Part shown: positions 6,410-40,088 of the stretch, piece after piece | Position numbering within the stretch: position 1 is the first letter of the stretch | Layout: each line of letters opens with the position of its first letter | Assembly: GCA_040218535.1 (NCBI GenBank) | Contig: JAVJRG010000012.1 | Coordinates: 992,001-1,056,000, forward strand | Length of the DNA stretch: 64,000 bases | DNA from: Lacipirellulaceae bacterium | Lineage (GTDB): Bacteria > Planctomycetota > Planctomycetia > Pirellulales > Lacipirellulaceae | Direction: 5' to 3' | Position numbers and translations under genes: made by a program | The notes under the pieces: generated by a model | What the model saw: the letters and a program-made list of their open reading frames with translations, nothing else | What the model was told of the DNA's origin: nothing | Database searches by the model: none

Positions 6410-7441
6410 TCACCTATTGTTGTCTTCGGTGGGCGTGTAATTGTACTCGATTTGATAGTCGTCATCGCGACGGCAGAGTTTCGCCAGCGTCTGGGTATCA
6501 ATCTCATTGGCAACCAACCGCAGCGATCCGTCTGCCATGACAAAGGGACAAACCCCGGGATGCCAACTTCCGAAACCGATCACAGGAACGTTTAAGTCCG
6601 AAGGGCCACGGGCGATTCCGATTCCCACGCCACCGACGCGAGCGAAGGCAGTTAAGTCTTGGCCATTGTAGATGGGGCCATTCTCTGGCACTTTTGCCAA
6701 GCGGCCATCAGGAACATGCATCTCACCGACCAACACCGTGTTGCTGGCACCATCGACGAGGTCCTTGTTGCGAATCTTGTCTTTCCAGCCTGTGGGCTGG
6801 TTGTTCTTGCAGAGCGGCCGACTGGAAATAATCACTCCCGTACCATTGCCCCCCCGCCAATAGGCGTATTCGTCGTCGAACGATCCGCCAGTCAAGTCGC
6901 CATGATTGCCTGCGTAGTCACCAACGGCCCCGCCAATCATTTGAACGAGTTCCGAATAGCTACAACCACACGGGAAAGTGTACTCTTGCTCAATGAGTTC
7001 TGACTCAATAACCGCCTCATTGGGGCTTCGTCGCGTAGGGCAAACATAGGCGGAGGGAATATGCTCTCGCACCTCGGGCCGGTGCAAAGAATAGACGCTG
7101 TACAAATCCCACTGCGAGGCGAAGGTCTGTTGTTCGAGGTAAGGAAGAATTCGCACCAACCAGGAAGGTTGAGTCGTCTCGCAGGCATACATGCTGTAAT
7201 CGTCGCGGGCACGTAGGCGCGCCGGGGGGAAGGCCTCGGTTGCATCATGCAGGTTGAGCGTCGCCAGACCGATCTGCCGCAAGTGACTTTCGCATTGCGC
7301 AAGACGCGCTGCTTCGCGGGCTGCCTGAACCGCGGGGAGCAGTAGGCCGATGAGCGTGCCGATGATTGCGATGACAACCAGCAACTCGACGAGCGTAAAG
7401 CCGCGAGCCGAGTGAAATCGATACGAGTTACGGGAAGTCAT
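6410..7441 (-). CDS. DUF1559 protein with type IV pilin-like N-terminus
   Basis: A 343-residue protein beginning with a prepilin-type cleavage and methylation motif ([20 protein letters not shown]) followed by [14 protein letters not shown], the hallmark of the large DUF1559 family of planctomycetes. The centre has the family string for an asparagine-rich SGNHG-like section ([22 protein letters not shown]), and the end has the usual MADGSLRLV motif before the C-terminus. The protein is expected to be processed by a prepilin peptidase and exported by a type II secretion or pilus-like system. No pilus machinery is in the window. Its own -10-like TATAAT lies about 47 bases upstream on the minus strand. 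Confidence 0.92.
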
Positions 7442-9053: not shown

Positions 9054-12000
9054 ATGTCGAAGCGTTCGGCAGATTCTGCCGTCAAAACAACATCGAAAGT
9101 TCCTTGGGTGCTGCTGGCGGTTGCCGTCATCGTGGCGGTCGGATGGTGGTTCGCTAGTTCGAATCAAGCTGACCAGGAGGAGAAGCGCGCAGCCAACGAT
9201 ACCGAGTTAAGCGGGGTAGACGCTTCGGAGCGAGGCGATACTGACCGATTGCCGCAAGTTTCTAACGCAACCGGTAGCGGCACCAAGCCGGTCATCATGC
9301 CGGCTACCGCACAGCAGCGAGATGACCTGCAGTCTATCCACCGAGGTCTCGATCCAACGTCGGTAGGTTGGCAATCAGAAGCTTTCAACGACTACGCCTC
9401 GAAGCAGCTCAAGCTCTTGGCCCATGCGATTGAACAGCCCGAGCAGGTCAGCGCAGACGAACTTTCCTCCCTTGTTGCTGACGACTTCCACACCACACGG
9501 TTGTGCCCTGCTAACCTTGTGGAAGCGTTTCGCGACACGACGACCTTGGTTCGGCGAGCGAGTAACTCAGACGACTTCTCACCGATGCCCGAGCAAGGGT
9601 CGAAGGCGCTCTCGCAAGCGATTCAGACTCTTCCACAGCCCAAGCCGGCCGGCGGCTTTCACGTCAAGTTCAAGGTAGTCAGTGTCGATGCTGATCGCGA
9701 AGCTGGGCGAGTAACCACACGCGTCTATGCAGAAGGAGGAGGCCCTGGGGAGGATGGCTTGACTCAGTGGCGAGCGATGTGGACTTGTCACTGGAAAACG
9801 GAGTCCGGTGGCAAACCCAAGCTGCAGGAGCTTTCTGTCGCTGATTATGAACAAGTTGATTCACTCGTGGGTGAAGGACCTTGGCTCGTCGATTGTGCAC
9901 CAGCCGTCCTGAGGGCAGAGAAAAGTTACCGCGAACAGTTTTCACACGGCATGGAATACTGGTTGCGTCGCCTTGAAGGCCGTTTGGGGATGAGCCGTCT
10001 GGGGCACAATGGCATCGCCTTGGGCGACGTGAACAATGATGGTCGCGACGACCTGTACGTGTGTCAGTCGGGGGGGCTGCCGAACCGACTGTTTGTTGCT
10101 CAGCCCGACGGCACCGCTCGGGATATTGCCCGTGAGGCGGGGGTGGACATTCTGGACGATTCTACCTGCGCTCTGTTTGTCGATCTCGATAATGATGGCA
10201 ACCAAGATCTGGCGCTGATGACCGAGTCTGGCGGATTCATTTTCTCAGGCGACGGTTCCGGGAAGTTCGTGCCCCGCACGATACTCGCTGAGTGTCGAAA
10301 CGCCTTCTCCCTCACAGCCGCCGATTACGATAATGACAAACTTCTCGACCTCTATGTCGGTCGCTATTGGCCGACGCGCGAAAGCCGTGGGGATATTGCG
10401 ATTCCTGTTCCGTATTACGACGCCCAGAATGGCGGAAAGAATCTGCTGTTCCGCAATCGAGGTTCTTTGGAGTTTGAAGACGTTACGAAGCAGACGGGAT
10501 TGGACGAGGAAAACACTCGCTACACGATGGCCGCAGCTTGGAATGATTTCAACCAGGATGGACGGATTGATCTCTATGTGGCGAACGATTTCGGTCGCAA
10601 TTGTCTCTATCGAAACGAAGGAGGCAAGTTTACCAACGTCGCCGCTGAGGCGGGTGTGGAAGACTCTGCTTCGGGAATGTCCGTAACCCTTTCCGACTAC
10701 GATCATGATGGGCTCGAGGATATTTACGTTAGCAACATGTTCTCTTCAGCAGGCAGCCGCACGACCTACCAACGCCAGTACGAGGAACGCTTCGGGGAGG
10801 AGGGCGTCCGCAAGATGCAACGAATGGCTCGAGGGAATACTTTGTTTCGCAACTTGGGCGAAGGAAAGTACCAGGATGTCAGCTTGCCGGCAGACGTGAC
10901 GATGGGACGCTGGGCCTGGGGATCTCTGTTCGCTGATTTTAACAACGATGGTTGGGACGACCTTGCCGTATTGAACGGCAACATTACGACTGAAGACACA
11001 GGCGATTTGTGAAGTTTCTTCTGGCGGCAGGTCGTGTCGCAATCACCCACCGAAGCGGCGAGCATCTCGCCTGAGCATCCGTACGCGCAAGGAGCCGCTC
11101 AGCTCAACCGTCTGGTGCGCGAAGGCCGCTCATTCAGCGGTAAGGAGCGCAACTGCGCTTATTTGAATACCCGTGGCGAGCGGTTCGCCAATGTTTCGAC
11201 GGTCAGCGGACTCGATTTCCCCGACGATGGACGTGCCATTGCCGCGGGCGACTGGGATTTCGATGGGGATGTTGACTTTTGGGTAGCCAACCGCACGGGT
11301 CCTCAGCTTCGCTGGATGAGGAACGACTTACCGACCGAACACCACTTCGTTGCCCTACGTCTCATTGGCAAGCAGTCCAATCGTGACGGCATTGGCGCGA
11401 CGGTGCGCCTCTACCTTCCAGGCAATAAGGTTCCGCTGACGAAGAGCTTGCGCGCCGGAGAGGGCTACTTGGCCCAGGGTTCGAAGTGGCTGCACTTCGG
11501 ATTGGGAGATCAGCAGAAGGTAGAAACGCTAGAGATTCAGTGGCCATCGGGAGCCGTCGATCGAGTCGAAGGACTCAATGCTGATGGGTTCTATAAGCTT
11601 GTAGAGGGCCAGGAGAAGGCAATTGCATGGGAGCCTCCGCGTTTTGATGTTGTAGACGCGCCCAAATCAAGAGAGGGACTTCCTTCGGAAAGCTCGAGTA
11701 CCCAAGTCCTGTTGAGTCTTAGCGCCCCGCTGCCACCGTTGCGGTATGATTCCCCAAACGGTGAAAGCTTGGACGCCTCGCAGACGCAGGACCGGCCACG
11801 GTTAGTGAATCTCTGGGCGACTTGGTGCCAACCTTGTTTGGTGGAACTCAAAGAATGGTCGAAGTACGAGTCTGAGTTTGAAGCGGCAGGCCTGGATATT
11901 TTGGCCCTTTCGGTGGACGCGATTGCTCAAGACCAATCGAAAAGCCAGGCCGCCCCCGCCCGAGTTCTAGAAAGACTTGGTTTTCCTTATGAATCGGGCA

Positions 12001-13418
12001 CCGCGACGACCGAGTTATTGGACATCTTGCAGTTGGTTAACAACGCAATCTTTCGTGACGACCATCGCCGTCTGCCAGTTCCAACTAGCTTATTGATTGA
12101 TGGCGAAGGCAATCTGGCTGCCGTCTACAAGGGCGGCGTCGATGTGGACCGTCTCCTTGCGGACGTGAGAATGCTCTCCATAAGCTCCAATGAGCGAGAG
12201 CGTGCCACCCTGCCCTTTGCTGGTCGTTGGATGGGCCTTCCCGGGCCGTACCGCATGGCTCAATTAGTGGATCAGATGTGGGAGAAGGAATTCGAGGACG
12301 AGGCTGTCCAACTTGCGAGTCGGATGCCCATCTCCAGGTCTGACGACCAACGGGCAACCGATGAGAAACTGAAGGTTCTCAGGTTACTTAGCCGTCGCTT
12401 CCAAGCGAAAGGGCAAACTGAAGCGGCGAGCAAACTGCTTCGCTCGGCACTCGAAATCCGCCAAACTGACGGCCAATCGGCTCTGCAGCTAGGAACCTTA
12501 GCCGCAGAGCAAGGAGAGATTCAGCAAGCGATTCGCTACTTTGAAATCGCGGTTGAGCAAATCGATCCACCCCAGGTTGCGGCTCATCTGAATCTGGCGA
12601 TGGCTTACCGTAAAGTAAAGCAGCCAGAGAAGGCAGAGGAGCAATACCGCCAGTCACTTCTTATCGACTCCAAATCAGCGAGCGCTCACTCAGGTTTAGG
12701 TTTACTACTAGCGGAGCAAGCGAAGTTCTCCGAAGCGGCCCAGAGTTTCGCGAAGGCCGTAGAAGCGGAGCCTGCGAACACGCAGCATCGAATGAATCTG
12801 GCAACGGCCTACCTTCAACTTAGACAACCAGAAGCGGCACTGGAGGCATTCGACGAGTTGCTTGAGATTCAGCCAGAATCACTCCAAGCCCAATCCTACG
12901 CGGCGGAAGCATTGGCTAGCTTAGGCAAATTGGAAGAGGCAGTTGCGCGACTAGAAAAAATTGTGGCGTTGGAACCTAAGGCGACCCAGGTTTGGTATCG
13001 AATGGGTCAACTGGCGATGCAAGGTGGCAAGATGGCCGATGCCGTTGAGTTTCTGGAACGCACTCACGAGCTCGCTCCTAAGGATCCAACGATTGCTGGC
13101 AACCTTGCTTGGATTCTGGCGACCGCACCGGACGACTCAGTAAGGAATGGCAAGCGTGCTGTCGAACTGGCCTCGATGGCAGTTGAAGCTACCGGCCGTC
13201 AGTCGGCTCAACTGCTCGACGCCCTAGCCACAGCCCATGCCGAAGCGGCTGAGTTCGAAGCCGCCCAGCGATTGGCAAATGAAGCTCTTCAACGAGTGGG
13301 CAAAGACCCCGCCCAGCGCGGGCTGGCCGACGCGATTCGAGAGCGGCTTGAGCGATTCAAGCGTGGTGAGCCTTTTCGACTTGAGCTGCCGGAAGCTCCT
13401 GAGGCTTCGGCGAAATAG
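9054..13418 (+). CDS. FG-GAP/UnbV/thioredoxin/TPR protein with in-frame TGA, candidate selenoprotein
   Basis: One continuous frame of 1455 codons broken only by a TGA at codon 653 (11010-11012). Order of parts: short N-terminus, membrane segment (VPWVLLAVAVIVAVGWWF, about residues 17-34), an unassigned region to about 320, then six FG-GAP/VCBS repeats with Ca-binding loops (DVNNDGRDDLYV, DLDNDGNQDLALM, DYDNDKLLDLYV, DFNQDGRIDLYV, DYDHDGLEDIYV, DFNNDGWDDLAV) up to about residue 640. The sequence NGNITTEDTGDL is followed by the TGA and then SFFWRQVVSQSP. A further Ca loop (DWDFDGDVDFWV), the ASPIC/UnbV domain, a thioredoxin-like domain and TPR repeats follow. The domain order across the TGA is that of an intact CRTAC1-type protein, so the two halves belong to one product. 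Decoding as selenocysteine is supported by a hairpin after the TGA; a nonsense mutation or sequence error is the alternative. The start was placed at ATG 9054; an earlier TTG-type frame start at 9003 is less likely. Confidence 0.75.
11013..11040 (+). promoter_or_regulatory. Candidate bacterial SECIS hairpin after in-frame TGA
   Basis: Directly after TGA 11010-11012 the RNA can form a stem GCGGC (11024-11028) with GTCGC (11036-11040), five pairs including one G-U, closing a seven-base loop AGGTCGT (11029-11035). The loop begins 17 bases after the TGA, and G is in its first two positions. The string GCAGGTC also occurs in the loop region of the Escherichia coli fdhF SECIS element as I remember it. 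These are the properties expected of a bacterial selenocysteine insertion element. A five-pair stem can arise by chance, so this is support and not proof. Confidence 0.5.
11034..13418 (+). CDS. C-terminal half of the FG-GAP protein (UnbV, thioredoxin, TPR)
   Basis: If the TGA at 11010-11012 really stops translation, this half would have to start at GTG 11034 or later, and no ribosome-binding site precedes that codon (the bases before it encode conserved SFFWRQV). It holds an ASPIC/UnbV domain (about 100 residues, HFVALRLIGKQSNRDGIGA to LEIQWPSGAVDRVEG), a thioredoxin-like domain with a WATWCQPC active site (Cys925 and Cys928 in full-length numbering) and DILALSVDAI, then about nine TPR-like helical repeats to the end. 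It carries no signal peptide of its own, which again says it is the downstream part of the membrane-anchored product and not a separate gene. The redox-active pair suggests an oxidoreductase role on the outside of the membrane. Confidence 0.6.
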   Translation: MSQSPTEAASISPEHPYAQGAAQLNRLVREGRSFSGKERNCAYLNTRGERFANVSTVSGLDFPDDGRAIAAGDWDFDGDVDFWVANRTGPQLRWMRNDLPTEHHFVALRLIGKQSNRDGIGATVRLYLPGNKVPLTKSLRAGEGYLAQGSKWLHFGLGDQQKVETLEIQWPSGAVDRVEGLNADGFYKLVEGQEKAIAWEPPRFDVVDAPKSREGLPSESSSTQVLLSLSAPLPPLRYDSPNGESLDASQTQDRPRLVNLWATWCQPCLVELKEWSKYESEFEAAGLDILALSVDAIAQDQSKSQAAPARVLERLGFPYESGTATTELLDILQLVNNAIFRDDHRRLPVPTSLLIDGEGNLAAVYKGGVDVDRLLADVRMLSISSNERERATLPFAGRWMGLPGPYRMAQLVDQMWEKEFEDEAVQLASRMPISRSDDQRATDEKLKVLRLLSRRFQAKGQTEAASKLLRSALEIRQTDGQSALQLGTLAAEQGEIQQAIRYFEIAVEQIDPPQVAAHLNLAMAYRKVKQPEKAEEQYRQSLLIDSKSASAHSGLGLLLAEQAKFSEAAQSFAKAVEAEPANTQHRMNLATAYLQLRQPEAALEAFDELLEIQPESLQAQSYAAEALASLGKLEEAVARLEKIVALEPKATQVWYRMGQLAMQGGKMADAVEFLERTHELAPKDPTIAGNLAWILATAPDDSVRNGKRAVELASMAVEATGRQSAQLLDALATAHAEAAEFEAAQRLANEALQRVGKDPAQRGLADAIRERLERFKRGEPFRLELPEAPEASAK

Positions 13419-15247: not shown

Positions 15248-15401
15248 CAGTATTGCAGTGGTTCGTAATGAACTAGAACTCTGCGCGTCAAACGACTTCC
15301 GGGGCAGGAGCCTCGTCTCTATGGCGGGGCTGTGCGGTCGTCTAGGTGACATGCAGGGTTCTTTTTTTTGCTCACACATTTTTGCTATCGAGATATATTC
15401 C

Positions 15402-17206
15402 ATGCGTTTTGTCAAAGAAATCCGACTTTGGTTGCTTGCAAGCTTGTCGCTGGTGTTTGCTCTCTGTCCAAATCTTTCCCAGGCCAATCTTCCAATCGCT
15501 GACCCGATTAGCGGCGACATCGGCACAACTTCTTGGTCGGTTGCTCTAGAAGATGTGATCACCATTCCCAACAGTTCAGGCAATAATCGCCCTCGATTGG
15601 AATTTATGACTGGTGGTGGAGCTGCTGGCCTAGCCTATGTGATCGATCAGCGAGGCAAGATCTATAGCTTCGATCCTACGGCCAGTAACCCAAGTTCTTC
15701 TCTTTTCTTTGACGTCTCAACAGCCGTGCCTAACTTTAGAGATGGTGGGCAAATGGGGGTGCGTGGCTTGGCGTTCCATCCCGATTTCAATAACCAGGGC
15801 ACCGACGGGTACCGCAAGTTCTATACATCACACAGTCGTTTTTTTGGTACTGGTATTGTCGGTAATCCAACCACTTTTGCTGACCCTGGATTCAACAATC
15901 ACTACTCTGTGCTCGGTGAGTGGACAACCAATGCAAATGGAACCGTGAACACCGGCTCTTACCGTGAACTCATGCGTGTCGCTCAACCGATGGGTGATCA
16001 CAACATCGGTCAGATTGGCTTTAACCCTAACGCCACCAACTCCAGCCATGCTGACTATGGAAATCTCTACATCACCATGGGGGACGGCGGAAGCAATGCC
16101 TTTCCGCAGACTGCAACGGACGTAAACAACCATGGTCAGGGCCTTGATGAAGTGTTCGGATCCATTCTGAGGATCGACCCGTTGGCGTCTGGCGGTAGTC
16201 CCTATTCCGTCGTGACCGACAATGCGCTGAATGTAAACACCAGCATTACCAATCCACGCAACTTGGTTTGGGCCTACGGGCTACGGAATCCTCATCGCTT
16301 CAGTTTCGATACCGGTGGCGAGCAGGGGATGTATATCTCGGATATCGGGCAGGGGAACATCGAGGAGGTCAACTTAGGAGCCAACGGTGCGAATTTCGGC
16401 TGGGGAGTTCGCGAGGGAACATTCGTTGACACGAAGGACCCATTCATTAACAACATCAACCAACTTGATACTCTGCCTGCCAATCATACGACGGACGCCT
16501 TCACCTATCCGGTTGCCCAATACGATCACCAAAACCAAGCGGTAGGAACCAGCAACCCTGCACAACCAGGCAATGGGGCGATTGCCGGTGGCGAAGTTTA
16601 CCGCGGTTCCGCTGTTCCACAGTTGAAGGGCATGTTCATCTTCGGCGACTTCGCGAATAATTCGGCCCGCTCTTTGCTGTTGACGTTGATGAACTTGTTC
16701 AGCGTGAGGACTTCACAGACCTGAGCAATCTCGACGGTGGGAACTTGGCCCCTTACGAGGAGCTGCGACTGACCTTTGGCGGCGTCGAGAAAACGATGCT
16801 TCAAGCCATTCGCGACGCTAGCGGAAACCAGGGGCTGGGTCGCACAGATATTCGGCTGAACATCGGCCCGGACGGCGAGTTCTACGTGTTGAACAAACGC
16901 GACGGGCGCATCCGCCGGCTTGTCTCCGTGACTGGGGTGCTGGACGGGGACACCGACCGCGGTGGTGAAGTCAACGGTGGCGACTTCTTGACCTGGCAGC
17001 AAGGCAACGGCGCGAGTGACGCCTGGAGCGACGGCAACTTCAATGGGGACGATGTGATCGACGGGGCCGACTTGACAATCTGGGGCAATAACTACGGAAG
17101 CACTTCAGCAGTAGCTAGTTCGTCTCAGGTGCCCGAACCGTCAACGGTTGCGCTGCTTGTCAGTGCATTGCTGATAGCTTTCTGCGCTCGACCCGGGAAA
17201 TCGTAA
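15402..17206 (+). pseudogene. PQQ-type sugar dehydrogenase-like PEP-CTERM protein, one-base frameshift
   Basis: Start ATG 15402 gives a signal peptide (MRFVKEIRLWLLASLSLVFA). The product is a glucose/sorbosone dehydrogenase-like beta-propeller: GVRGLAFHPDF, GDHNIGQIGFNPNA, DYGNLYITMGDGG, GSILRIDPLAS, WAYGLRNPHRFSFD and GNIEEVNLGANGANFGWGVRE. Near 16666-16675 the frame slips by one base: after GDFANNSAR the natural continuation LFAVDVDELVQRED is found in the -1 frame, which then runs to 17206. That C-terminus has dockerin-like repeats (DGDTDRGGEVNGGDFLTWQQ, DDVIDGADLTIWGNN) and a PEP-CTERM tail (VPEPSTVALLVSAL). The convergent neighbour is an intact paralogue and fixes where the frame should be. 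A one-base deletion explains it; no clear slippery heptamer is visible, so programmed frameshifting is unlikely. A sequencing error remains possible. Family members oxidise aldose sugars with PQQ. Confidence 0.75.
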
Positions 17207-17219
17207 GCTGAACGAGTGT

Positions 17220-18806
17220 CTAAGTTCGTCGACGGCTTGCAACTGTAAGACAGAGTGCTCCTAGCATTATCACGGCAGTGGCTGGCTCAGGGATAGGCGT
17301 GCCTATGAATCGTCGGATAGTGCCGTCCTTCTTGCTGCTGATGTAGATTTCGCCGTTTTCGTCGATTCCGAATCGCATATCGGTGCGATTCTGCCCAAAG
17401 TTCCCACTCTTCTGCCGCACAAGTTGCAAGAACGAGACGGGCTGTCCGTTGCCGTCCACCAGCTGAAGCCGCTGGATAGGTGCTAGGAATTCGTCGTGGA
17501 ACGTGGCGAGATTTGTGAGATCGTCCCGAAGTTGAAGTTGATCAACATCAACAACATAGATGTCTTGAAAGGCCGTAGATGATCCAAAATTACCAAAAAC
17601 ATACTTCCCACGAAGCTCGGAAACTTGTGTGCCCCGATACACGAAACCGCCAGCGATTGCCGCATTGTCTTGGCCGCTGTTGTTGAAGTCGTGATCGTAC
17701 TGCACGACCGGATACGTGTAGGGGTCGCTCGGATGATTCGCCGGCAACACATCGGCGGCAATCGGGTTGCCCGGGAGTTTGCCTGTCATGTCGAAGGTGC
17801 CTTCACGGACGGCCCAACCATAGTTGGCTCCCGGCACGCCGATATTTACTTCTTCGATGTTGCTTTGGCCAATGTCGGCGATCAACATCTCGCCGTTCCC
17901 GCCTGTATCCCAGCTGAATTGGTGAGGGTTTCTCAGGCCGTATGCCCAGATCTCAGGGTTGATTCCCGCCTCTCCAACGAAGGGATTATCCGCTGGCACC
18001 GTGTAAGCTCCCGCCCTAGTCGGCAACGGGTTGATTCTCAGTATCGAGCCCAAGAAGTTAGTAGTATTTTGGCCGTTGGGATTGAGCGTCGTATCGCCTC
18101 GATCGGTGCGGTAGTTCCCGCCATCGCCAAACGAGATATAGAGATTACCATAGTCAGCATCGGTAGGCGAAAGATTGGGATTGAAACCCAGCTTCCCGAT
18201 ATTGTGATCTCCTCGTGGCTGCGACTGCGTGAGCAGATCTCGCTTACTACCGGCTTCGACGCCAGTTCCGCCTGTGTTCAAGGTCCATTCGCTCACCACT
18301 GATCGATGGCTTTCTGTTCCGTTGGTTGCAGTAATCTCGTGAGCGGTATACATCTTGCGATACCCTGGAGCATTCGGGCTTCCAAAGGCGTTTGGGTGGA
18401 AGGCGAAGCCTCGCAAACCCGACTGTTGATTTCCGTTGGCGAAGTTCGGAATGTTCGCACCAAAGTCAAAAAACAGCGTGGGGTTGGCATCACCTGGAGT
18501 AAACGTGTAAACCCTTCCCCGCTGATCTGCTGTGATCATGCGGCCAGAACCATCCTCTAAGGGCGACGTTTGCTCGACACGGGCGAAACGATTACTGCCC
18601 CCTGCACTGTCAGGCAATTGAATTACTTCCTCAAGTTGCAGGGTGAAAGTGGTCGCTGGAATAGTCCCCGAGATAGGATTTGCAGGTGTCAGTGTCTGAG
18701 CGGTTGCCATACTGCAACCAAGCACCAAAGTCAGAAAAACGATCGCTCCGAAAAATCGCGTCTCGATGAAGTGATGGCATTGTTTCGCTACTTGAGTTGA
18801 AAGCAT
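17220..18806 (-). CDS. PQQ-dependent sugar dehydrogenase-like PEP-CTERM protein
   Basis: A 528-residue intact paralogue of the frameshifted convergent gene. It has a signal peptide (IVFLTLVLGCSMATAQ), then the beta-propeller strings GLRGFAFHPNAFGS, GDHNIGKLGFNPNLSPTDAD, YGNLYISFGDGG, GSILRINPLP, WAYGLRNPHQFSWDTGG and EEVNIGVPGANYGWAVREG typical of glucose/sorbosone dehydrogenases, and an IPEPATAVIMLGAL PEP-CTERM tail with RRR end. Unlike its relative it lacks a dockerin-like insert. The product should be exported, cleaved by an exosortase and kept at the surface, oxidising sugars if it binds PQQ. No pqq synthesis gene is in the window. Its stop is 13 bases from that of its convergent relative, which suggests an inverted duplication. 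Confidence 0.85.
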   Translation of the reverse strand: MLSTQVAKQCHHFIETRFFGAIVFLTLVLGCSMATAQTLTPANPISGTIPATTFTLQLEEVIQLPDSAGGSNRFARVEQTSPLEDGSGRMITADQRGRVYTFTPGDANPTLFFDFGANIPNFANGNQQSGLRGFAFHPNAFGSPNAPGYRKMYTAHEITATNGTESHRSVVSEWTLNTGGTGVEAGSKRDLLTQSQPRGDHNIGKLGFNPNLSPTDADYGNLYISFGDGGNYRTDRGDTTLNPNGQNTTNFLGSILRINPLPTRAGAYTVPADNPFVGEAGINPEIWAYGLRNPHQFSWDTGGNGEMLIADIGQSNIEEVNIGVPGANYGWAVREGTFDMTGKLPGNPIAADVLPANHPSDPYTYPVVQYDHDFNNSGQDNAAIAGGFVYRGTQVSELRGKYVFGNFGSSTAFQDIYVVDVDQLQLRDDLTNLATFHDEFLAPIQRLQLVDGNGQPVSFLQLVRQKSGNFGQNRTDMRFGIDENGEIYISSKKDGTIRRFIGTPIPEPATAVIMLGALCLTVASRRRT

Positions 18807-35835: not shown

Positions 35836-35948
35836 AAAAAACTATCGCGCGAATGATAGCAATTGCTGCTTGTTCCCTACCGGTAGACCTTTGTGTTGGG
35901 CGTGCTTTAACATGTTCGGTAGGCACGTAACAGCGAAGGCAGTGATTG

Positions 35949-38900
35949 GTGAGTGAGCAATCCCCTCAACCCGCGGTGGAACTTCAGCCCGTCTTGGACG
36001 AGGTGGTGGGTTATCTGAACTTTTCGTCAGGAAACAGCGACCCTCACTTCTTGGAGAATCTGAGCCGGCTTGCTGAAGCGATTGAAGGTTCAGAGACGAT
36101 CGCTGCCGGTGATGCTCAGTGGACGGAAATACTTAAGGTTTGGCTCACTGGTGCGATCCAGCGACTGCAAGCTGAGGGCAAGGCATTTCGCGATGCCTCA
36201 CAAGCGACTGCATTAGTCGAGCTGATGTTCAAGGAGTTCTTGCCCGCCTATCGAGAATTCCACCGCGATCTGCTCCACCATCAGACAGAACAAGACCTGT
36301 GGCGGCCTTACTTTTTAGGCCGTGCTTGGGAAACACTGCTGCGGCAGGGTGGGTCTTGGGATGAGTCGGACAGGATCGTTACCGTGGCTCTTTCCCAGCT
36401 GAACGACTACGTCGGCTATCGTCCGACACCGGCGCTGACCTCGGGGAATCGTTCTGACCCCTACCCGAACGAATTCGTTCGTCCTATTCCCCTCTATGTC
36501 CGTGGTGCCGGCGTGGCAGCCGGACGATATGACCGTTTGCTTTCGCGTACACTGGAGATTCTCCGTGAAACCGATCCAGAGATCCTGCAACGGGCTTGGT
36601 TCGACCTAGATCGCCTTGAGGAGATTGCTCTCGACCCGCGAGCATACGACTTCGACCATCCCGTCAATCGTCGTCCCAACCATCATTTCGGTCAGTGGGA
36701 TCCTCGCCACATTGATGGAGCGGGCTACTACACTCGTTTTGTTATGCAGGAAGTGACGCTTGCCGCACTGCTCGCGCGCGTGGAAGCCGCGAACGAAGAT
36801 CCGCAAGAACAGGAGCACCGACTTTACGAAGCGGCAGCGGTGCTCGCCGGTACGATTCTCATGGCGTCGGGCACCAGCGGCGATGCCCCTGGGTGCCACG
36901 ACTCAACGGTTACACTCTCGACACTTCTGCCGCATATCGCTGCTTATCGCGACGATTTCTATCAACAATTGTTGACCAGTGCCGTGGGGGCATTGGGGGA
37001 ACGACTCCTTGAGGATGCGCAAAAGCGGAGGCAGCCGTTTGGTGCGGCAAGACAGCACCTGAATCACGAACTTTCGCGGCGACGTGCCTTGCAGTTACAA
37101 AGGGTTCACCTCGCGCTACTGTTCGCTCGCATGGGTTACCAAGACTCAGCCTTGAAGCAGGCGGGTTCAGTGCGCGTCGCTTCAGCACGGATGTTGACGG
37201 CTCTCTATTGTCGACTCACCTCGGGGCATGATTCGATTGATGCGGGCAAGCTCGACTTGGTTTCCGATGATCTCTTGCAGATTGAAGACCTATTGCATCG
37301 TGCGATCGAATGCGGAGCGCTCGTCGACCCCTGGAGCGTCGTGGGTTTTGCCGCCAACTTTAGTTTGTTTCCAGCGCTTGAGAACACTGTCCATGACTGG
37401 CGTGTTGATGAGCTGATCGAGCTTGTCCGACAAATCCTCGACCTAGCGGCCCGCGCTTGGAGCGAAGCTGCGGCCGTCGACGACTCGAAACATGAACGTC
37501 TATTCGAATCAATCTTGCAAAGACTCACACGGTGGTGGGACCAGCATGCTACGGCAACGGTTGAAGGCGTCGACCGACTCGTTGCCAAAGAGATCGAAGT
37601 CTCGGCCAACCTCGTCTCTGGCGCTCTCAACGCCTGGCACAAAGCGGGGGCTGCTTCGGGGGATATCGCCTTTTGGCAGATGTTTGTCGAAGAGTTTGAT
37701 TCATCCAAAGCTTTTCAGATGGTGATCGAAGCGCTGCTCGATCACGGTGACACGGTTGCCTCGCGTGCTTTGATGATGCAGTGGGTCAATCAGAGAGATC
37801 GAACACCTTTGGACGATGGAGACGCGGACCTGGGACCTTTGGCGTTCCGTTGGCTGGCAACCGTTGAGGCGCAGCAACATGCGGCTCCCGAAGAGAGTTC
37901 AGAGAAGGATCGGTGGCCTCAAGTCGCCAAGTTTTTCGCTTACTTGGAAGCAAATGCCGAGGAGTATTGGCAGCCACCCGAACTCACGATGGATGGTTCG
38001 ACTTCGGCCCGGCGAATCTCCGATGATGAAATTCCTTTTGGCGATCCCGATGGCGAGGATGACGACTACGGCGAGGACTTCGATACCGACGGCTTGGAAG
38101 AATCACTGGCGGACGAATTCGATGACGCGCTCGACGATGCTCTCGACAGAGAATTGGGCGATGGCGAGTACGACTACCCCTATGACGAGGAGAGCTCCGA
38201 CAGCGAATACGATTACGATGAGGAAGAAAGTGAAGTCTTCGGGGCTGCCTATGAGGAGATGGTCTACCGAGACAGCACCGACGATGGCAACGAGGGAGAT
38301 CTCGCTGATGATGGAGCCGACCCGCTTTACACCGAGTGGGAATATGAAGCCGACCGCATCGATCAGCGGCTGAGCTTCCTCAACACGGTTGCTCGATTAT
38401 GGAAGCACACGGCGATCACTTGGGGTGGCAACGGTGAGGATCGCCGCGAGACCTTCGATAGTTGGTTGCACCAAGCTGCGGATAATTATCGACGCCTGAT
38501 TGAACTGTTGGAGTCGGTCCACGAGTATCGTTTCGCAAAGCCCTCTCCCTCGCACGAATCGCTCGTCGAATACGATCGTTTGCGAATGATCAAGGAACAA
38601 CTTGTTCAAGCGATTATCGGTACTTGTGTCGAAACCGCGGTCGCCGCCCGCTTGCTAATGGCCTCTCGCGGAAAAGACGTGCAGCAAGAGTCAGCACCGA
38701 AACAGACGTTTGATGCAGAAATTGATCAGGTAGCGATACCCCTGCTGCGATCTGTCTTGGCGGGAGATACCGCAGGCGTTCGCGAAGTGTGGCCTTTCTT
38801 TCTGGAGGTGCTCTCGAAGCGGCCGCTGCTGTACGTGCCTCACTCACGGGGAGGGAAGCCTCGTAAAATTGTCGCGACACGCGGACTGCAACGATTACTT

Positions 38901-40088
38901 CACGACTTGCTCGGGTGGCTTCCCAAGCTAGGGATGGTGCGAGAGACTTGCCAGTTGCTCGATTTAGCCCAGCAACTAGAGAAAGACTTTCCCATGGAAA
39001 GCGCGGTCACGGAGTTCGATCGCCTGTTTGAGAACGGTTATCAGGCGATCGTCCGCTCGATGGTCGCTTCGGCAGAGGCGTGGGACAACCGCATTCCACC
39101 TGAACGAGCTCGCCAAGCGGACCACATGCTCGTCGATGCGTTGCAGATGCTTACCGAACGGCAGCTTGACCGTTGGTTGGATCATAGCCATACCCTACGT
39201 CTGAGTGTCGTCGAGCGACTTGGGGATGAGGAAGATTGGGAAAAGTTCAAAGCGTTTGTTGAAGCCTATGGAGAGCAACTCTTCACGCAGAAGTTCCTGG
39301 GCAGCCTTGGCAATCTCAGGGGGATTTTGCACCAGGGGGTCGACGCCTGGCTCGCGCAACTCGAGGAGAACCCTGACGCCATCGAGCAGATCAAGCTACT
39401 GACCGACCTCGCCGACGGTGCTCCTCGACAGGCTGTTGTCGAAATGCTGACGCTGACACTAGAAATCGTTGTCGAGAACTATCGCGCCTATCGGGATTAC
39501 AACACGACGACAACGCAAAGCGATCACGGCGAGCTGCTGTATAACTTTGTCGATTTCATTCGTTTGCGGGCTGAGTATGACCGGGTTGCCTGGAAATTAA
39601 GGCCCGTCGTCTGGGCTCACGAGATCCTTGTGAGGCATGGTCGCACATTAGCCGCTGAGATGTGGCGGCAGGCCTTCGTCGAACGGACCAATGACGTCGC
39701 TGAAGATCACCTCCAACGGCTGATTCAACTTGGCGAACAATATGGGATGCAGTTGCCGACGATTTCCGATCGCTTAGAAGAACGGTTTATCCGTCCGCTG
39801 GTGATCGACCAAGTTCGCGCCTTGGTCGGTCCTGCGATGAGTGCAGATGCTGAGGAGAAACGCTTGGCGTTTGCAGCCCTAGAGCAAGAAATCGCCGGAC
39901 TTGCCAGCCAACCTCACGGCGCCGGATTCGAGGCACCAGATTGGCTGACTGCCCTCGAAGAAGAAGTCACCGAGGCCCGTTCTCGCATGAGTCACGTTTC
40001 TTCTTCGGACCGATTGGCTCGAAGAATTGGACAAGTGCAACTCTCTTGGAGCGAGTTGTTAGAGCAGTTGTCGGGGAAAGAAAGCTAA
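35949..40088 (+). CDS. Large protein of unknown function with an acidic segment
   Basis: A product of 1379 residues from GTG 35949 (or 1380 from the TTG at 35946; GAAGG lies seven to ten bases upstream). There is no signal peptide, membrane segment or motif I recognise. The chain is predicted largely helical with many Leu/Trp/Arg heptad-like stretches, recalling alpha-solenoid or scaffold proteins. Residues about 680-790 are extremely acidic (for example GDPDGEDDDYGEDFDTDGLE and EESSDSEYDYDEEESEVFG), which splits the protein into two helical halves. Such an acidic insert often binds basic partners or forms a flexible hinge. It lies just after the purine operon but shows no link to it. Conserved planctomycete proteins of this size without function are plausible relatives, but I cannot name one. 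Confidence 0.7.
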   Translation: MSEQSPQPAVELQPVLDEVVGYLNFSSGNSDPHFLENLSRLAEAIEGSETIAAGDAQWTEILKVWLTGAIQRLQAEGKAFRDASQATALVELMFKEFLPAYREFHRDLLHHQTEQDLWRPYFLGRAWETLLRQGGSWDESDRIVTVALSQLNDYVGYRPTPALTSGNRSDPYPNEFVRPIPLYVRGAGVAAGRYDRLLSRTLEILRETDPEILQRAWFDLDRLEEIALDPRAYDFDHPVNRRPNHHFGQWDPRHIDGAGYYTRFVMQEVTLAALLARVEAANEDPQEQEHRLYEAAAVLAGTILMASGTSGDAPGCHDSTVTLSTLLPHIAAYRDDFYQQLLTSAVGALGERLLEDAQKRRQPFGAARQHLNHELSRRRALQLQRVHLALLFARMGYQDSALKQAGSVRVASARMLTALYCRLTSGHDSIDAGKLDLVSDDLLQIEDLLHRAIECGALVDPWSVVGFAANFSLFPALENTVHDWRVDELIELVRQILDLAARAWSEAAAVDDSKHERLFESILQRLTRWWDQHATATVEGVDRLVAKEIEVSANLVSGALNAWHKAGAASGDIAFWQMFVEEFDSSKAFQMVIEALLDHGDTVASRALMMQWVNQRDRTPLDDGDADLGPLAFRWLATVEAQQHAAPEESSEKDRWPQVAKFFAYLEANAEEYWQPPELTMDGSTSARRISDDEIPFGDPDGEDDDYGEDFDTDGLEESLADEFDDALDDALDRELGDGEYDYPYDEESSDSEYDYDEEESEVFGAAYEEMVYRDSTDDGNEGDLADDGADPLYTEWEYEADRIDQRLSFLNTVARLWKHTAITWGGNGEDRRETFDSWLHQAADNYRRLIELLESVHEYRFAKPSPSHESLVEYDRLRMIKEQLVQAIIGTCVETAVAARLLMASRGKDVQQESAPKQTFDAEIDQVAIPLLRSVLAGDTAGVREVWPFFLEVLSKRPLLYVPHSRGGKPRKIVATRGLQRLLHDLLGWLPKLGMVRETCQLLDLAQQLEKDFPMESAVTEFDRLFENGYQAIVRSMVASAEAWDNRIPPERARQADHMLVDALQMLTERQLDRWLDHSHTLRLSVVERLGDEEDWEKFKAFVEAYGEQLFTQKFLGSLGNLRGILHQGVDAWLAQLEENPDAIEQIKLLTDLADGAPRQAVVEMLTLTLEIVVENYRAYRDYNTTTTQSDHGELLYNFVDFIRLRAEYDRVAWKLRPVVWAHEILVRHGRTLAAEMWRQAFVERTNDVAEDHLQRLIQLGEQYGMQLPTISDRLEERFIRPLVIDQVRALVGPAMSADAEEKRLAFAALEQEIAGLASQPHGAGFEAPDWLTALEEEVTEARSRMSHVSSSDRLARRIGQVQLSWSELLEQLSGKES

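Follow-up and report, generated by a model that had tools for sequence, protein, structure and literature searches.

A UGA codon predicted to encode selenocysteine in an FG-GAP/UnbV–thioredoxin protein of a Lacipirellulaceae bacterium

Is the TGA that interrupts a very long coding frame of a Lacipirellulaceae bacterium a stop, an error or a selenocysteine (Sec) codon, and what would a Sec residue do at that place? The window analyzed here is a stretch of 64,000 nucleotides (contig JAVJRG010000012.1, positions 992,001 to 1,056,000), and the gene in question encodes a giant protein combining an FG-GAP propeller, a UnbV/ASPIC part and a thioredoxin domain. A first-pass annotation, made from the letters of the window alone, proposed that the TGA encodes Sec. 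Comparative analyses indicate that the TGA at 11010–11012 is very probably read as Sec, and suggest that this residue is likely to be recharged by the CxxC motif of the thioredoxin domain in the same chain. Two features define the question:

9054–13418, + strand: whole coding frame, from ATG at 9054 to TAG at 13416–13418; 1454 residues with UGA as Sec; domain order N-terminal anchor, FG-GAP propeller, UnbV/ASPIC, thioredoxin, TPR
11010–11012, + strand: UGA codon 653, predicted to be read as Sec from its presence at the same column in relatives and the Sec machinery in the genome

The UGA codon in paralogues and relatives

Direct reading agrees with the first-pass annotation that a single in-frame TGA interrupts 1455 codons; it is codon 653, and the rest of the frame is open. 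Residues 540–762, searched against the source genome, match three genes almost in full; two weaker hits fall in repeats within these genes. The three are the window gene and its paralogues C5:1548930 (60% identity) and C12:1478826 (43%). Each carries a single TGA, and the TGA contexts align as DLUSFFWRQVV, DLUSFFWRQVV and DLUSNFWRTVV. A profile of the three paralogues has matches in 70 of 294 Planctomycetota genomes at E 1e-25, and one genome (G260) carries eight family matches with one in-frame TGA each.

The phylum set examined contains 132 matches: the three own genes, 29 automatic loci and 100 fetched ones. The choice was non-random and includes all 24 no-stop matches, and part of the TGA ones, among the matches listed. 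In this set TGA stands at the Sec column in 108 of 132 matches; the remaining 24 codons are GAG (11), GCG (3), GCC (2), CGC (2), and AAC, GAC, GAA, CAG, AAT and TGT (one each). A second collection, from named genomes, consists of the best 80 of 289 relatives' loci, with records of Planctomycetota, Verrucomicrobiota and Acidobacteriota groups. Here the column holds TGA in 76 of 81 cases, AAC in four and TGC in one (control L017 excluded). The two collections overlap, and the TGA copies collected number 184 including the three own, with 177 distinct 48-nucleotide stretches, from Planctomycetota, Verrucomicrobiota and Acidobacteriota.

Three properties expected of a bacterial selenoprotein are present. 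First, the in-frame UGA is flanked on both sides by homologous coding sequence. Second, some homologues have Cys at the Sec position: five genes with a DYCTxFW motif (L077/L253, the second gene of L182, L288, L307 and L289), and in two Cys-form genomes (G003 and G267) neither SelB nor tRNA-Sec is found at the thresholds used. Third, the source genome encodes tRNA-Sec, SelA, SelB and a SelD-type protein.

Two copies depart from the usual arrangement. L078 (genome G016) has two more in-frame TGA codons, +21 and +25 codons from the Sec column, which may be additional Sec codons, signs of a broken gene or errors, and L225 (Thermoanaerobaculia) has an in-frame TAG 65 codons before the Sec column and may be broken or misassembled. 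Plasmid records give three weak matches, none spanning 80% of the query.

Selenocysteine machinery

The source assembly (5.36 Mb, 13 contigs, completeness 95.8%) contains all four components for which the first-pass annotation had suggested a search. The tRNA-Sec scores 72.2 bits against a cut-off of 47 and is also called tRNA-Sec by ARAGORN, with anticodon TCA; the same program assigns a second match above the cut-off (47.7 bits) to tRNA-Leu. SelB (378.7 bits, cut-off 242) and SelA (538 bits, cut-off 268) are present, as is a SelD domain (TIGR00476, 292 bits, cut-off 125) in a fusion with an oxidoreductase domain, and the four genes lie on one contig inside 17 kb. The fusion gene, at L022:7202–9451 (- strand) beside tRNA-Sec, selB and selA, joins the SelD domain to a pyridine nucleotide-disulfide oxidoreductase domain; its SelD function is likely, not certain.

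Formate dehydrogenase alpha was considered as the reason for Sec use in the source genome and rejected, because no protein there (G000) exceeds the cut-off and none of 16 matches has an internal stop.

Across the phylum, SelB is over threshold in 172 of 294 genomes and the TGA form, at the threshold used, is present in 61. SelB occurs in 59 of these 61 genomes versus 113 of the 233 others (Fisher p = 1e-13). Counting any family match, 65 genomes have both a match and SelB, five a match only, 107 SelB only, and 117 neither; SelB is present in six of the nine genomes with matches but without the TGA form. One TGA-form genome without SelB at threshold (G292) has tRNA-Sec. The 80 named loci come from 59 genomes, of which 43 were checked for SelB, at least two of these also being in the phylum set. 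Of those with the TGA form, 33 of 39 have SelB and three more have tRNA-Sec; all four with the AAC form have SelB. In the sole listed genome from the same taxonomic family as the window (G290), neither this protein nor SelB is found at the thresholds used.

A SECIS-like hairpin downstream of the UGA

A hairpin resembling a selenocysteine insertion sequence (SECIS) follows the codon:

11024–11040, + strand: SECIS-like hairpin GCGGCA-GGUCG-UGUCGC, after an 11-nucleotide spacer (11013–11023) following the UGA; loop begins after 17 nucleotides; comparative evidence

The first-pass annotation had placed a hairpin 11 bases after the TGA with its loop after 17, and both distances are correct. Its 5-bp stem and 7-nucleotide loop become 6 bp with a 5-nucleotide GGUCG loop if the closing A-U pair is counted, at -8.7 kcal/mol. 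With these values and the 17-nucleotide distance, the hairpin lies within the limits for bacterial SECIS (bSECIS) elements as set out in the available text of PMC13188914 (loop of 3–9 nucleotides with G in the first two places, stem of 4–16 bp, loop 16–37 nucleotides after the UGA, energy at most -7.5). The window sequence alone proves no SECIS, because the 51 nucleotides from its TGA show no folding advantage over shuffled versions (z = +0.78; 160 of 200 fold equally well), and it is the comparative evidence that carries the case.

A 6-bp stem with a 5-nucleotide loop, 11 nucleotides after the TGA, is present in 82 of 108 TGA forms, and in another 13 a 5-bp stem begins one base further on, with a GGUC or AGUU loop. 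A hairpin in either register is thus found in 95 of 108 TGA forms versus one of 24 non-TGA homologues. Synonymous-codon redraws keep the two-register hairpin in 8.8 TGA forms on average and 18 at most, and shuffling of the 3' arm keeps pairing in 27 on average and 40 at most, out of 82. The two registers were picked after inspection of the data, and the test was repeated under the published bSECIS limits, which 124 of 177 distinct TGA stretches pass versus no more than 30 in 50 synonymous redraws. These limits part TGA forms well from redraws and moderately from sense homologues. A further register, starting at 9 with 4 bp and having the highest mean pairing, was dropped (67, versus a redraw mean of 55 and maximum of 67).

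Changes in the stem accompany amino acid changes (WRQVVS, WRHVVA, WRRVAS, WRTVVR), and the third paralogue has a stem that differs but pairs, CGCAC-GGUC-GUGCG. In an alignment of 29 sequences preselected for pairing (the window and 28 hand-picked fully paired rows), the covariation score is 0.466 versus 0.191 for shuffled data, and 22 cells are altered on both sides. The first-pass annotation had also noted that the string GCAGGTC occurs in the SECIS of Escherichia coli fdhF; a 34-nucleotide fdhF stretch with this string matches 5368 of 5426 E. coli genomes, with fdhF annotation in the three rows shown, and bears this out.

Domain architecture and the joint presence of Sec and CxxC

The remaining features of the protein are as follows:

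9102–9155, + strand: hydrophobic N-terminal stretch, residues 17–34, likely membrane anchor (translation; topology predicted)
9924–11636, + strand: CRTAC1-like FG-GAP propeller with UnbV/ASPIC, UGA inside (Pfam, AlphaFold2 model, fold match 9etn)
11007–11042, + strand: predicted Sec insert helix, residues 652–663, Sec being the second residue (AlphaFold2 model residues 362–373)
11388–11591, + strand: UnbV part of the propeller region (UnbV_ASPIC, residues 779–846; Pfam)
11751–12122, + strand: TlpA/ResA-like thioredoxin domain (AhpC-TSA, residues 900–1023; Pfam; solved relatives TlpA 1jfu and ResA)
11826–11837, + strand: CQPC, residues 925–928, proposed Sec partner (CxxC pattern across TGA versus sense homologues)
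12366–13313, + strand: TPR repeats (domain models)

FG-GAP repeats, UnbV_ASPIC and the CRTAC1 fold are all present, which places the protein in the CRTAC1/UnbV FG-GAP group, and the thioredoxin fold contains the CxxC and cis-proline of TlpA/ResA-type domains. An AlphaFold2 model (m6240c2693d0a) of residues 291–1062, built with an alignment of 35 sequences, has a predicted local distance difference test (pLDDT) score of 90.7 and a predicted template modeling (pTM) score of 0.92. In the model the Sec helix is flanked by propeller strands, and the CxxC is at the N-terminal end of a thioredoxin-domain helix.

Sec and CxxC are present or absent together. Every one of the 37 full-length TGA proteins (the three own and 34 from the 76 named matches) carries Cys at positions 925 and 928 and Pro at position 1010. 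Among the sense homologues tested (23 of 25, two truncated ones being excluded), CxxC is found in one (L228) and the cis-proline is kept in 19; four are without the domain there. Pfam detects AhpC-TSA in 34 of 37 TGA proteins versus three of 23 sense homologues.

A wider test began with 185 distinct TGA members, five of them recruited by the pattern around the TGA; 58 tails are too short, leaving 127 testable. CxxC occurs 200–400 residues after Sec, with no Cys within six of Sec, in 114 of the 127. Twelve others have no later CxxC and carry a near Cys: ten have it at +2 (PDGUxC) and two at +5 (USEFWC and USQFWC). Either a later CxxC or a near Cys is therefore present in 126 of 127, the exception being L078, cut by a second TGA.

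A tree was built from 195 of 215 rows after removal of near-copies (a quick method with arbitrary root and no direction of change). On it the TGA label needs seven changes, at least five of them on well-supported branches. The five +2-Cys rows group together in a single supported clade, apart from the +5 pair. The pattern is taken here to mean that Sec and CxxC were lost together repeatedly.

Proposed function and alternative explanations

By computation, the UGA is conserved, the machinery is present, the hairpin shows compensatory change, and Sec and CxxC share presence and absence; from these we infer actual Sec insertion at codon 653. SelB with Sec-tRNA would read UGA 653 as Sec, guided by the hairpin at 11024–11040. 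The product would be a selenol oxidoreductase, membrane-anchored or exported, with Sec at the start of a helix inserted in the CRTAC1-like propeller, where the helix dipole would favor a reactive selenolate. Sec would most likely react with an oxidized substrate such as a peroxide, a disulfide or the like, and the selenenyl form would then be reduced by the thioredoxin-domain CxxC of the same chain. In subfamilies without the thioredoxin domain, a Cys two or five residues after Sec would resolve the selenenyl form. The Sec–CxxC coupling rests on comparison, and we infer the chemistry and its direction, the substrate and the location of the protein. Joint presence and absence strongly supports the suggestion of the first-pass annotation that Sec acts with the CQPC site, and its selenoprotein interpretation is backed by the machinery, the same-codon TGA in relatives and the Cys clade.

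Several observations weigh against this interpretation. First, the expectation that relatives would have Cys or TGA at codon 653 holds in part: TGA is found in relatives, and Cys in a single distant clade, on a long branch and only there, but most sense homologues carry Glu, Ala or Asn. Second, L228 has AAC at the Sec column and retains CxxC; it is possibly an intermediate in the joint loss of both. Third, four TGA-form genomes, G008 of the phylum set and the named assemblies G296, G319 and G320, have neither SelB nor tRNA-Sec found, and the SelD fusion gene of the source genome scores higher with a 'fusion_not_SelD' model (450.6 bits), yet under that model's own cut-off of 700. Fourth, neither hairpin register fits in 13 of 108 TGA forms, 21 of 22 distinct misfit stretches show another stem under a lenient rule without energy limit, and the published limits are also passed by 11 of 29 stretches without TGA. 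Two of five covariation measures do not stand out, the observed values being reached in 51 of 500 shuffles for both-side pair changes and in 153 of 500 for further pair types. Fifth, no conserved operon is seen among the neighbor open reading frames (ORFs) of TGA loci (70 out of the 147 found), of which the commonest are Laminin_G_3 in seven and UnbV in five.

The alternative that survives best overlaps with Sec decoding: Sec would be inserted and serve a non-catalytic role, in metal binding or in chemistry apart from the thioredoxin domain. In its favor, FG-GAP propellers bind calcium, and Glu, Asn or Ala stands at the site in many homologues. The 12 TGA proteins without a later CxxC that have a Cys just after Sec, together with the 19 of 23 sense homologues that keep the cis-proline when one keeps CxxC, argue against it and make a non-catalytic role unlikely.

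A regulated stop or leaky readthrough that involves no Sec and yields two products, one short and one long, is a good deal less likely still. Bacterial UGA can leak, but the codon lies inside the propeller, so that the short product would lack part of it. Leakiness would also have to be reconciled with the co-occurrence of TGA forms and SelB, a hairpin within bSECIS limits, the shared presence or absence of Sec and CxxC, and the occurrence of Cys at this position in a clade with two genomes in which neither SelB nor tRNA-Sec is found at the thresholds used.

A nonsense mutation, pseudogene or sequencing error, which a single TGA in one assembly could reflect if judged from the window alone, is refuted by same-column TGA in two further paralogues and across the 184 TGA copies, and by a frame that continues in the 127 TGA members with enough sequence, save L078. 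Genome-wide reassignment of UGA to an amino acid, under which the frame would be open, is rejected with equal firmness: UGA ends 12 of 38 long mechanical ORFs in the window (the codon-653 TGA counted in), such as the DUF1559 gene at 6410–7441, tRNA-Sec and SelB are present, and among the 132 phylum matches TGA is confined to the Sec column, save L078.

Neighboring genes

The DUF1559 gene lies upstream of the coding frame. Downstream are two glucose/sorbosone dehydrogenase-like genes, at 15258–16724 (+ strand) and 17220–18806 (- strand), and the longest uninterrupted frame of the window, 1380 codons, is at 35946–40088 (+ strand).

Novelty and significance

A 2026 inventory lists 119 prokaryotic selenoprotein families and subfamilies, and in its available text none is named for FG-GAP, UnbV or CRTAC1 (PMC13188914); families without an NCBIfam model were compared by name only. 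Within that scope, the proposal of a new selenoprotein family is supported. Over the Sec region, NCBIfam gives XAC2610_fam alone, under its cut-off (for one of the scans, among 25 of its 34 hits). The terms sought for an FG-GAP/UnbV family are absent from the available main texts of PMC9312934 and PMC4807772, and the open-licence literature yielded no paper joining selenoproteins or selenocysteine with UnbV, ASPIC, FG-GAP or bacterial CRTAC1 (FG-GAP and CRTAC1 by title); priority is not certain. We did not find this large family catalogued in the inventory.

On balance, the comparisons favor a widespread, often multi-copy exported selenoenzyme family in Planctomycetota, Verrucomicrobiota and Acidobacteriota. 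Its propeller Sec would be recharged by a same-chain thioredoxin domain, and Sec-less sites are usually Glu, Ala or Asn without CxxC. The family may be one reason for keeping Sec decoding; it is not the sole one, because 113 genomes have SelB without the TGA form at the threshold used.

Such a family would add a large group of selenoproteins in three phyla and a new scaffold for Sec. According to the available text of PMC12013277, deep-Sep retains a candidate only if it has a homologue already known to contain Sec, or if Cys homologues rank among its top hits; the authors also write that Cys homologues now seem to exist for all known selenoproteins. Because of this filter, deep-Sep would tend to miss the FG-GAP/UnbV family. 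If the reading of codon 653 as Sec is true, Sec-less sites with Glu, Ala and Asn contradict the idea that close Cys counterparts exist for every selenoprotein, and such families escape searches based on Cys homologues. Annotation has probably split each TGA-form gene into two broken ORFs. For UnbV/CRTAC1-type proteins, the occurrence of Sec together with either a CxxC domain or a near Cys also offers a directly testable redox mechanism.

Comparison with known systems

Four known systems resemble parts of the locus. Like the E. coli fdhF Sec insertion element, which has an 11-nucleotide spacer, the hairpin carries GCAGGTC at its top; the stem lengths of the two differ, and the inner stem pairs of the FG-GAP/UnbV family vary and covary. 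The propeller and UnbV part resemble murine CRTAC1 (PDB 9etn; Z 36.1, root mean square deviation 2.3, 441 residues aligned, 20% identity), but the alignment is limited to model residues 1–563 and the thioredoxin domain falls outside it; the remaining fold matches are, by title, largely other propeller proteins and uninformative on function. The thioredoxin domain, with its CxxC and cis-proline, is like those of the thiol-disulfide oxidoreductases TlpA and ResA (1jfu, 1st9), although here it is fused behind a Sec-bearing propeller and the NCBIfam TlpA/ResA models shown stay under their cut-offs. Finally, the combination of Sec with a thioredoxin-like domain recalls the NF041054 (WAxxUGC) thioredoxin-fold selenoproteins, to which the thioredoxin part is a weak match (31.4 bits, cut-off 300). 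In that family, by its name, Sec lies in the thioredoxin motif, whereas here the thioredoxin motif is a CxxC and the predicted Sec lies in another domain.

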